In this document: positions 14,768 to 18,258 of the stretch, one piece after another
How positions within the stretch are numbered: position 1 is the first letter of the stretch
Layout of the letters: the number at the start of each line of letters is the position of its first letter
Source of the DNA: Candidatus Fermentithermobacillaceae bacterium
GTDB lineage: Bacteria; Bacillota; Sulfobacillia; Fermentithermobacillales; Fermentithermobacillaceae
Assembly (NCBI GenBank): GCA_012842105.1
Contig: DUTL01000159.1
Span: forward strand, 1-34,932
Length of the DNA: 34,932 bases
Direction of reading: 5' to 3'
Position numbers and translations under genes: made by a program
The notes under the pieces: generated by a model
Databases searched by the model: none
What the model was told of the DNA's origin: nothing
Seen by the model: only the letters and a program-made list of their open reading frames with translations

Positions 14768-16000
14768 CTATCTCTTGAGATTGACCAATTCCTGCAATAA
14801 CTCGTCAGATACGGTAATAACCCTTGAGTTTGCTTGAAATCCCCTTTGTGTAATAATCATCTGGGTAAATTCCTCTGCAAGGTCTACGTTAGACATCTCA
14901 AGGGCAGTAGGCGCTATAGTGCCCCTTCCGGAAGTCCCTGCCGCACCTACGTCTGCAACCCCTGAGTTGTTTGATTCAACGAAAAGGTTCTTGCCTACCT
15001 TGATAAGGCCCGACGGGTTTGCAAAGCTGGCAAGGGCGATTTGGCCCAGGACCCGGTTTTTGCCATTGGAATAAAACCCTGATATCACTCCGTTAGAGTC
15101 AAAACTGAATGACTCAAGGGTGCCCGTAGGCCACCCGTCAACTGCGCCCGACTCTATGGTTGTGGGCCCGGCAACCTGAGTTAGCCTGCCAAAGTTCATG
15201 GTTACTGCTACATGATCAGCTCCGTTAGGAGTAAATTCGAATTGGTTCTTATCAACGTCGTTGAAAGTACCATCGTGGCCAAAAGTGATAATCCCCGGGT
15301 CCGCCGTACCTCCTCCTGGAAGATGGGCTATCCATGTCCATTCATTTGTATTCGTCTTCTCAAAGTCCACTTGGATGCTGTGTGTTCTCCCCAGGGAATC
15401 GTATACCGTAATGGCAGTGGTCTTCATAAAGCCCACTTCTGCTTCTGCATCGAGGTTCTTAATCCAGTCCATATTGCTTGTTGCCCTTGCAGGCATGTTC
15501 GACCCCACTTGTATAGACAATGCCTCCAGGTTTTGGCCTGTACGGTTAGGCGGCAGGGTGCCGTCTGAACCTGAAGCCCAACCCAGCACCTTCCTTCCTT
15601 CGTAGTCCACAAGTATGCCGTCGCCGTCAGTTGAAAAGTTGCCGACCCTGGTATATGAACGGCTCTCGCCATCCAGTACAACGAAAAACCCGTTGCCCTC
15701 TATGGCAACATCAGTCAGCCGCGACGTAGGCTGCAAGTTCCCAGGCGTCTGAATGGTATCGATGCTTGCCACATTTACGCCTAGCCCAACCTGCATAGGG
15801 TTAGTGCCTCCCCGTTCGGCCTGTGATGCGCCTGAAGGCGAACTGGCCCCCCTGAGGGTCTGGCTGAACACTTCCTGAAACGTCACCCGGCTGGATTTGT
15901 ACCCGGGAGTATTCACGTTTGCTATGTTGTTCCCAATAACGTCCATGCGGGTCTGGTGAGTCCTTAATCCAGACACTGCGCTGAACAATGAACGCATCAT
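14768..16000 (-). CDS. flgE: Flagellar hook protein FlgE
   Basis: MMRSLFSAVSGLRTHQTRMDVIGNNIANVNTPGYKSSRVTFQEVFSQTL...; C-terminus NVDLAEEFTQMIITQRGFQANSRVITVSDELLQELVNLKR. Start placed at the ATG downstream of AGGGGTG. Confidence 0.96.
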   Translation of the reverse strand: MMRSLFSAVSGLRTHQTRMDVIGNNIANVNTPGYKSSRVTFQEVFSQTLRGASSPSGASQAERGGTNPMQVGLGVNVASIDTIQTPGNLQPTSRLTDVAIEGNGFFVVLDGESRSYTRVGNFSTDGDGILVDYEGRKVLGWASGSDGTLPPNRTGQNLEALSIQVGSNMPARATSNMDWIKNLDAEAEVGFMKTTAITVYDSLGRTHSIQVDFEKTNTNEWTWIAHLPGGGTADPGIITFGHDGTFNDVDKNQFEFTPNGADHVAVTMNFGRLTQVAGPTTIESGAVDGWPTGTLESFSFDSNGVISGFYSNGKNRVLGQIALASFANPSGLIKVGKNLFVESNNSGVADVGAAGTSGRGTIAPTALEMSNVDLAEEFTQMIITQRGFQANSRVITVSDELLQELVNLKR

Positions 16001-16026
16001 CTCTGAATGCACCCCTTTCTCTTTTG

Positions 16027-16091
16027 AGTTCCGGCGCTTTCTCCATCATTCGAAAGCGCTTGGCCTCCCTGAAAGGGTCCGGCCCGGAACT
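16027..16091 (-). promoter_or_regulatory. Predicted three-way-junction RNA element in the flgE 5' intercistronic region
   Basis: Minus-strand RNA: AGTTCCG | GGCC-GGA-CCCT-TTC-AGGG-A-GGCC | AA | GCGCTTTC-GAATGATGGA-GAAAGCGC | CGGAACT. Three Watson-Crick helices with 2 nt unpaired at the junction. Confidence 0.7.
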
Positions 16092-16509
16092 ACTTGTCCA
16101 TTATTACTGCACTGTCAATCGAGGTGAACAGGTTTTGTCTCATCCTGTCCTCTGGAATCACGGTAACAACTGTCCGGCTTTGCGGTGCGACTACAAAAGC
16201 TACTCCTTTCATCAGCACCAGAGTCGACCTGGCTCCCTTGGCCTGGGCAATGTCCATTGCGCTATCCAGTTCTCCAACATAGTCAGTTTTTGCGTCACCG
16301 TTCCATGCGTGAATCCTTTGCTCTGCATGCTTGGAGAAAGTGACGTTTGCGCCTTTCCCGGCTTGCCTGAGCGCTTCCAAAAAAGCACCGTTCCCCGCTT
16401 TGGGTAATGCCTGGGCCCGTTGGGTTTGCCTCTGCAAGGCGGTTTGAGTATTAAGAGAGTCTATCCTGTTATTACTCTTAATCTTCAGTCCCATGAACCG
16501 CCCCTCCAA
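16090..16509 (-). CDS. Flagellar operon protein (TIGR02530-like)
   Basis: AEQRIHAWNGDAKTDYVGELDSAMDIAQAKGARSTLVLMKGVAFVVAPQSRTVVTVIPEDRMRQNLFTSIDSAVIMDK; between flgD and flgE. Confidence 0.85.
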   Translation of the reverse strand: MEGRFMGLKIKSNNRIDSLNTQTALQRQTQRAQALPKAGNGAFLEALRQAGKGANVTFSKHAEQRIHAWNGDAKTDYVGELDSAMDIAQAKGARSTLVLMKGVAFVVAPQSRTVVTVIPEDRMRQNLFTSIDSAVIMDK

Positions 16510-16957
16510 TCCAGATAAGGTTTTCGACGGGAATCTCCTGCTCTTTGCTGCGAACTACCAACCTGCCCGAACAGAAACCTACACCTTCAATAACTCCTGT
16601 AGCCAGGCCATTTGAAACCACCGCTTCAAATTGCTTTCCAATGAGGTGGGCGGCTTCAACCAGGCTTCTTCCCAATTGGTTCTCCACCAGGTAACTGCAC
16701 AGCCACGAAATGTTGCCGTTAAGGTTCTGCATTTGCGTAGCAGTGGTGAACTGAGCCATCTGAGCAAAGAAGTCCTGCTCATTTACAGGCTCCATGGGAT
16801 CTTGATACCTTAACTGGGTTAGAAGGATCTCCATGAACTGATCCTGAAGCGCTCCTACCTGGTTTGCAACTTGATTAGCCTGAATTTGATTCCATCCGCC
16901 TTGAGTTGCCTGAACTGCCGACGACATACTTGTCACCTCCATGTGAACAACGCTCAT
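16478..16957 (-). CDS. flgD: Flagellar hook capping protein FlgD
   Basis: LQDQFMEILLTQLRYQDPMEPVNEQDFFAQMAQFTTATQMQNLN. Confidence 0.95.
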   Translation of the reverse strand: MSVVHMEVTSMSSAVQATQGGWNQIQANQVANQVGALQDQFMEILLTQLRYQDPMEPVNEQDFFAQMAQFTTATQMQNLNGNISWLCSYLVENQLGRSLVEAAHLIGKQFEAVVSNGLATGVIEGVGFCSGRLVVRSKEQEIPVENLIWIGGAVHGTED

Positions 16958-18258
16958 ACCCGGTAATCTAATATGCGAGAGCCAAGAATCATTCCTCCGC
17001 TTATAGGTTGGTCCTGAATGCCGTCATAACCGTCTGGTCTTGAATGCTTGAACAGAGTCTGGCTCGCTGAAGCAAACTCATGGCGCGGCTGGTTGCTTTG
17101 GCCCGCCATGCCATGATCAACGAAAAACCCTGCCAAAGACAACCCTCTTTCTGACAGCGCCTGTGCAAGGGCATCTTCCGAGCCGGCCAGCATCTGATGA
17201 GAACCGTAGGAAGAAGCAACAAACTTCACACATACTTCTTCGCCTCTGGAGGCAATCACGACCGTGATTTTGCCCAAACCGGGAGGATCTAACCTGAACT
17301 CTACGCTCTTAGGAAGGACAGAACCGGCCTCATCTGCCAGAACCTCAGCTATCTTCTCAGGATGCTGTATAGAAGCTTGAAATTCCTGGTCCTTAACTCC
17401 TGGGCCTGTCCGAACCTTCAGTGAATATGCGGGCAATGCAGCCCCTGCAACGCGATCTTCTTCATGGCCCCCCTGTGTTTTGCCGGGCTCAGAATCCATG
17501 TCAAAACCATTGGAATCAGCCTCACTGATTGCTGTCTCAGAACACCCCACTCTACGGGCTTCGGGCTGGAGCAATCTCATTGCTTGAAAATCCACAGGCT
17601 GCTCCATGGCCCCCTGTACTGCGGGCAGGGGTTCCTCTTGCCCCAAGTGGGCATGCGTGGCAAATCCGGGCACACGGGAGGCACCATTTTCAAAACCATG
17701 TTGAGGTTCAAGCACAACACCGAATTCTACGCCTTTTTCCGAACCATGTTGAGGTTCAAGCACACCGGACTCCACGCCTTCCATCACGCCACCAACGTCC
17801 AGGATGCTGAGAGACTGTCCCTCATACTTGCCCCCGGCTACGACAATATGTTTGCGGAACAACGTGGCAACCTGTTCGAAACAGAGCTTTAAGGGAACTC
17901 CTGCCGCATTCTTGCCAGGCATTGCATCAACGTGCAAGGCTGCCTCTGATTCCGGCTGGGCTTGTGAAGGTTCTCCGGAGAGCCGGCCCATAAGCGGCAA
18001 GTGCCCGTTGAGAAGAACCGGGCGGCCAAACCCCGCGTTGGAGATTGCTTCTATTCCAGCGGCCTCAGGGGCGCCTTGAATCAGCGGTTGGCCTCCCCAT
18101 CCCTTTGCGGAACAAAACGCACTTGCCAAACCGGCCATTATGGCGCTGAACGCATTTCCGGCCAAGCCCGCATCTTCGTGTCCTGCGGGCTTTAAGGCAG
18201 GTATGTGCGAACCTGGCCCGTTGGTTTTCAGATTGCCGGTATCCATGTACATTTCCAT
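16954..18258 (-). CDS. fliK: Flagellar hook-length control protein FliK
   Basis: C-terminal FliK-like VEFRLDPPGLGKITVVIASRGEEVCVKFVASSYGSHQMLAGSEDALAQALSERGLSLAGFFVDH; long variable N-terminus. Confidence 0.88.
   Translation of the reverse strand: MEMYMDTGNLKTNGPGSHIPALKPAGHEDAGLAGNAFSAIMAGLASAFCSAKGWGGQPLIQGAPEAAGIEAISNAGFGRPVLLNGHLPLMGRLSGEPSQAQPESEAALHVDAMPGKNAAGVPLKLCFEQVATLFRKHIVVAGGKYEGQSLSILDVGGVMEGVESGVLEPQHGSEKGVEFGVVLEPQHGFENGASRVPGFATHAHLGQEEPLPAVQGAMEQPVDFQAMRLLQPEARRVGCSETAISEADSNGFDMDSEPGKTQGGHEEDRVAGAALPAYSLKVRTGPGVKDQEFQASIQHPEKIAEVLADEAGSVLPKSVEFRLDPPGLGKITVVIASRGEEVCVKFVASSYGSHQMLAGSEDALAQALSERGLSLAGFFVDHGMAGQSNQPRHEFASASQTLFKHSRPDGYDGIQDQPISGGMILGSRILDYRV
17694..17764. repeat. 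Tandem duplication inside fliK (48-bp period)
   Basis: AACCATGTTGAGGTTCAAGCACA occurs at 17694-17716 and 17742-17764; encodes duplicated VLEPQHG(S/F)E(K/N)G. Confidence 0.9.

Follow-up and report, generated by a model that had tools for sequence, protein, structure and literature searches.

The window analyzed here, the whole stretch of 34,932 nucleotides from contig DUTL01000159.1 of a Candidatus Fermentithermobacillaceae bacterium, carries a flagellar operon in which the gene order, as read from the translations, is fliI, fliJ, fliK, flgD, TIGR02530, the RNA element studied here, flgE, motA, motB and onward. The genes abut or overlap, in agreement with the preliminary description of this DNA. 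The protein encoded upstream of the element matches TIGR02530 with an E-value of 1.2e-20 and 74 bits (cut-off 83.2), and PF12611 with a score of 32.8, above the cut-off of 21.1. The open reading frame of flgE had been called from GTG 16012 (minus strand), which affects the placement of the Shine-Dalgarno sequence; relatives share the sequence MMRSLFSAVSG, and we therefore assign the start to the conserved ATG at 16000. Elsewhere in the window, the fliK-like gene (16954-18258, minus strand) contains two 33-nt direct repeats at 17684-17764 (plus-strand coordinates), whose starts are 48 nt apart and which share 91% identity. A c-di-GMP-I riboswitch (RF01051; 24679-24773, minus strand; 84.6 bits) with a terminator-like hairpin lies directly upstream of flgB, so that c-di-GMP probably controls the whole operon as well, flgE included. 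The features at the locus are as follows.

16090..16509, minus strand: gene for a small flagellar protein of the TIGR02530 family (PF12611), assigned by profile searches; candidate partner of the RNA.
16085..16091, minus strand: P1 5' arm, AGTTCCG; from the fold, with compensatory changes within Fermentithermobacillaceae, unconserved outside.
16062..16084, minus strand: P2 hairpin, GGCC-GGA-CCCT-TTC-AGGG-A-GGCC, in which a conserved GGA faces a single purine; from the fold and the alignments.
16078..16080, minus strand: GGA of the asymmetric internal loop of P2; frequencies G 1.00, G 0.96 and A 0.95 across 168 elements.
16060..16061, minus strand: AA linker joining P2 to P3, the two bases left unpaired at the junction; from the fold.
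16034..16059, minus strand: P3 hairpin with an 8-bp stem, GCGCTTTC/GAAAGCGC; the stem letters vary and pairing is kept.
16042..16051, minus strand: P3 loop, GAATGATGGA, 10 nt; the consensus GANYGAYNGA is found in 162 of 168 elements.
16027..16033, minus strand: P1 3' arm, CGGAACT; from the fold, with compensatory changes within Fermentithermobacillaceae.
16011..16019, minus strand: flgE Shine-Dalgarno region, GAAAGGGGT, able to pair with CCCTTTC of P2 over 7 bp.
14768..16000, minus strand: flgE, hook protein, downstream of the element; start from conservation.

The 65-nt segment 16091-16027 (minus strand) folds with a minimum free energy of -31.9 kcal/mol and a z-score of -3.97, a value equaled by none of 200 dinucleotide shuffles. 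RNA folding returns the very structure drawn in the preliminary description, with every P1, P2 and P3 pair and the two-base junction in place. All the pairs lie at the coordinates given there. The first base of the P1 5' arm is the second base of the upstream TAG stop codon, and about 8 nt separate the P1 3' arm from the flgE Shine-Dalgarno sequence, GAAAGGGG. When the same segment is refolded with its flanks the z-score drops to about -2.2, and the single sequence by itself is therefore moderate evidence at most. Two other readings were rejected: (i) a mobile or repeated element, since the element is present as a single copy in the source genome and occupies a fixed locus in relatives, and (ii) an intrinsic terminator, since P1 and P3 are followed by CAAAAGAGAAAGG, which lacks a U run.

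The case for a conserved RNA structure rests on comparison with relatives. A DNA search of 101 related genomes recovered the element in all 13 relatives belonging to the family, always close to TIGR02530 and flgE and with 82–97% identity, as compared with 50–73% for the TIGR02530 protein across the same relatives. Two-sided changes occur at 10 of 16 pairs in an alignment of 15 sequences, which gives a covariation score of 0.474 versus at most 0.16 for slid controls. An alignment of 83 sequences, with 93% of cells paired, scores 0.533 versus at most 0.12 for slid structures, and 99 further sequences found with a second model score 0.540 versus at most 0.16; these two alignments were fitted to the model and thus lean towards the structure, which does not apply to the 15-sequence alignment, registered by hand. 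For the 3' arms of P2, one padding N corrects the MAFFT register, and the later realignment was model-based. The preliminary description had proposed conservation and covariation across the flgE upstream regions of relatives as checks, and both were found. We conclude that the conserved structured RNA preceding flgE is real.

The conserved unit is smaller than the fold in the window. In the wider class P1 is lost, while P2 and P3 are retained; the P2 bulge and the P3 loop vary very little, and the conserved core is formed by P2 (GGCC-GGA-CC..GG-R-GGCC) and P3, a 6–8 bp stem of any sequence capped by GANYGAYNGA. Among 168 elements the GGA of P2 faces one A or G. The P3 stem shows several pair types at most positions, and its loop is constant. 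P1 does covary within the family to which the window belongs (U-A to C-G and C-G to G-C), but across the 168 elements its pairing, at 12.5%, is hardly above the 7.4% obtained with shuffled flanks. The compact three-way junction described initially thus exists as a fold in the window, but as a conserved unit it is ruled out, because P1 is confined to the family of the window, and we regard it as a local elaboration of a two-hairpin element.

We analyzed the genes that follow the element. An flgE- or flgG-type gene lies downstream in 96 of the 98 model matches with a readable downstream gene, at a distance to the start codon of 15 to about 300 nt (median 31 nt), and many genomes hold two copies, one ahead of flgE and one ahead of flgG elsewhere. 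The structured spacer before flgE, as it had been described, is strongly supported, but the site is not limited to flgE. A single flgK case was identified, in a termite-gut Oscillospiraceae genome where the element sits between flgN and flgK (L100:5069-5124, minus strand; also L256). Eubacterium plexicaudatum has four additional model matches (L267:1501-1557, L270:1501-1557, L271 and L272); the L267 and L270 copies precede similar genes of about 200–250 amino acids with no assigned function, possibly encoding other exported proteins. In family f7, inferred from its FlgE sequence to be Sulfobacillus-like, the element lies within the TIGR02530 reading frame, at its 3' end; at loci L084-L090, L092 and L094 it encodes a conserved PxSRxTDG..HWSL tail; since it is inside a coding frame, one sequence may act here as both RNA and protein.

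To describe the distribution we used two covariance models, R1 and R2, the second built from 86 sequences, together with a context-free pattern scan over genome contigs. The window element scores 69.5 bits with R1, of which it is a member by construction, and 63.1 bits with R2. The R1 search covered 154 genomes of the class and found the element in 61; R2 found it in 259 of 399 genomes sampled across Bacillota. Of these 399 genomes, 335 encode the rod/hook domain PF00460; all 259 element genomes fall among them, and none of the 64 genomes without rod/hook genes has the element (p = 5e-35). Roughly three in four of the flagellated Bacillota sampled carry it. The pattern scan gave matches ahead of flagellar axial genes in Bacillota including Paenibacillus, Cohnella, Moorella, Sporomusa, Acetivibrio and Lachnospiraceae, and also in groups including Hydrogenedentes, Abyssobacteria, Neomarinimicrobiota, Gemmatimonadetes and Oligoflexia; Chloroflexi have the element too. 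Roughly one pattern-scan locus in three (in Streptomyces, Frankia, Pseudonocardia and others) lacked a recognized flagellar gene downstream, and most of these were set aside as chance matches. In Bdellovibrionota, taken to be the phylum of the Oligoflexia record, the element is present in 47 of 192 genomes; at L378-L381 in this phylum GGU takes the place of GGA in the P2 bulge and the P3 loop has diverged, and a separate model would catch many more.

These variations in spacing and sequence bear on whether the RNA could act without a protein, as a switch in which the flgE Shine-Dalgarno sequence pairs with the 5' arm and loop of P2 and is freed when P2 forms (P2 acting as an anti-sequestor). 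In the class of the window, P2 GACCUCUUU matches AAGGAGGUC at the Shine-Dalgarno sequence, including bases past the normal 16S complementarity, and in the family of the window CCCUUUC of P2 pairs with GAAAGGG. True P2/Shine-Dalgarno partners pair better than shuffled ones (13.7 versus 12.6 +/- 0.16), but the gain is small and the shuffling ignores phylogeny. Moreover, some elements lie more than 100 nt from the start codon, the GGU that replaces GGA in Bdellovibrionota would, as judged by sequence, lose the extended match, and such a switch leaves both the conserved P3 loop and the link to TIGR02530 unexplained. We consider it unlikely. Because the spacing varies, simple occlusion of the ribosome-binding site cannot apply in every case, and sequestration of the Shine-Dalgarno sequence as a general mechanism is excluded by this variable distance together with the complementarity lost in Bdellovibrionota.

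The link to TIGR02530 was evaluated by co-occurrence. Among the 335 flagellated Bacillota genomes, 256 have both, three the element only, 24 TIGR02530 only and 52 neither (p = 2e-38); collapsed to families the corresponding counts are 96, 0, 6 and 14 (p = 1e-13), where genomes are phylogenetically non-independent and the collapse to families is the sole correction for kinship. Completeness is 84%, 79% and 95% for the three element-only genomes, and TIGR02530 is possibly in the missing sequence. Ten genomes with TIGR02530 only were examined, five of the 24 Bacillota and five Bdellovibrionota, and with search filters off all ten revealed a diverged element directly after TIGR02530; the 24 Bacillota are thereby weakened as counter-examples, given that 5 of 5 carry such elements. 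In Bdellovibrionota all 47 element genomes encode TIGR02530, the element starting 6–142 nt past the TIGR02530 domain, and a TIGR02530-like frame is present at 9 of 9 non-Bacillota pattern-scan loci checked. As TIGR02530 and the element adjoin at flgE, the co-occurrence could come partly from joint inheritance or loss. Linkage alone is nevertheless insufficient to account for it, because in genomes such as G201, and likewise G325 and G521, the listed element is the flgG copy and lies on a contig other than that of TIGR02530. A search of 14 control genomes, including four with rod/hook genes (E. coli, B. subtilis, Caulobacter and Thermotoga), did not find TIGR02530, and this absence may be why the system was missed.

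A strict tie to one protein family is hard to reconcile with a small-molecule riboswitch for rod and hook genes. The aptamer-like size and the conserved loops on a covarying scaffold would suit one, and motility operons are known riboswitch targets, the present operon itself beginning with the c-di-GMP-I riboswitch. The element is, however, located mid-operon, is gene-specific and almost never precedes other genes, and Rfam gives no aptamer match to it; we regard a riboswitch as very improbable.

Structure prediction offers a hint of what TIGR02530 may do. Its core was modeled by AlphaFold2 with a mean pLDDT of 91, in the order b-a-a-b-b-b followed by a short helix and strand. A Foldseek search with the core returned nothing significant; RelE, YafQ and ParE appeared with E-values of 0.6–0.8 and a TM-score of about 0.45, and SmpB was also among the top weak matches. 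A longer model gave weak, non-significant matches to colicin- and CDI-type nucleases. Among TIGR02530 members, 34 of 57 and 37 of 53 showed weak similarity to Pfam DUF4258. RelE, YafQ, ParE and DUF4258-type proteins belong to the RelE/BECR group of RNA-acting proteins. We treat the resemblance of the predicted fold to RelE-type RNA-binding proteins as a lead and not as a membership, and consider TIGR02530 the likely protein partner of the RNA.

A RelE-like predicted fold would also fit a site of processing or stabilization without regulation, at which an endonuclease, TIGR02530 or RNase III for example, parts the flgE mRNA from the upstream message, and the position of the element, mid-operon and just past a stop codon, suits such a role. 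Conserved unpaired nucleotides and the occurrence ahead of flgG are, however, more than a simple processing hairpin needs, which makes this explanation improbable.

Against the background of the observed structure, covariation, position, phyletic spread and co-occurrence of the element, we propose, with somewhat more confidence than doubt, that P2-P3 is a cis-acting mRNA element that is read by TIGR02530 and sets the synthesis of rod and hook subunits. The element, situated in the mRNA directly upstream of flgE and often also of the distal-rod gene flgG, would be recognized by TIGR02530, a protein with a predicted RelE-like alpha/beta fold that is itself encoded upstream of the flgE copy, through two features, the GGA in the P2 bulge and the P3 loop GANYGAYNGA. 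Binding would then tune how well the rod and hook messages are translated, or how stable they are, while the flagellum is being assembled, by activation or repression. Of the roles suggested in the preliminary description, a protein-binding or translational element is still the preferred one, and TIGR02530 now supplies a candidate protein for it. The pairing of the P2 5' arm with the Shine-Dalgarno sequence in the class of the window hints at a possible coupling there of protein binding to ribosome access.

The nature of the targets, all exported axial proteins (flgE, flgG and once flgK), raises a further alternative, in which the RNA is an export or localization tag that, through TIGR02530 as adaptor, directs axial-protein mRNAs to the type III export gate of the flagellum. 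A precedent has been speculated upon, namely localization of the Salmonella fliE mRNA by signals in untranslated regions (PMC8546590). The axial genes flgB, flgC and fliC are, however, absent among matches whose downstream gene was read, and the flagella of model organisms function without such a tag, TIGR02530 not being found in E. coli or B. subtilis; we deem it quite unlikely. More broadly, and only tentatively, the RNA and TIGR02530 may form an undescribed system, regulatory or export-coupling in role, in which a RelE-like protein repurposed to read RNA tags or gates the rod, hook and occasionally HAP1 mRNAs, so that synthesis follows the state of the structure. Such an RNA-TIGR02530 system might, though we put this forward with reserve, be old and widespread despite not being found in E. 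coli and B. subtilis.

Work on how rod and hook subunit synthesis is matched to flagellum growth has centered on Salmonella, E. coli, B. subtilis and Caulobacter. Here, one RNA element marks hook and distal-rod messages beside one uncharacterized protein in several phyla, and the two form a concrete candidate RNA-protein pair through which flagellar genes could be controlled in step with assembly, which also provides a candidate function for TIGR02530.

Finally, we compared the element with known systems. The preliminary description had recognized no known family, and this is borne out: Rfam 15 yields no match to the element at the gathering threshold in the window, nor in the window region up to E 10, at 18 related loci or at L100 up to E 5. 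In the literature covered, with most subscription papers and preprints outside the search, nothing was found on TIGR02530, PF12611 or an RNA motif before flgE or flgG, and we rate the P2-P3 RNA family as new. The c-di-GMP-I riboswitch (RF01051) is likewise a structured RNA that controls flagellar genes, but its sequence and fold differ and cmscan gives no match to it at the element. Termite-flg (RF01729) and flg-Rhizobiales (RF01736) are, like the element, candidate structured RNAs tied to flagellar genes, for which they were named, and are listed as restricted to the termite gut or Rhizobiales (PMC2864571). Neither gave a cmscan match to the element here or in the termite-gut genome with the flgK copy. 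CsrA/FliW also exerts post-transcriptional control on flagella, with CsrA recognizing GGA. CsrA sites present GGA in hairpin loops, whereas in the element, a fixed two-hairpin fold, the GGA occupies an internal loop and is replaced by GGU in Bdellovibrionota; a CsrA site (ANGGA in a hairpin loop) is ruled out, as the GGA is internal and not universal and the P3 loop mostly has NGA. With RelE/ParE-type (BECR) proteins and DUF4258, TIGR02530 shares the predicted b-a-a-b-b-b topology, an SxHAxxR motif and weak similarity to the DUF4258 HMM, but has no significant structural match to the RelE/ParE type. If TIGR02530 binds the RNA, the arrangement would resemble ribosomal-protein-type leaders in being a compact leader read by a protein of the same pathway, although RNA, protein and pathway are all different. 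A protein-read mRNA leader is thus a known kind of mechanism, while the RNA family, the set of targets and the putative reader would be new.
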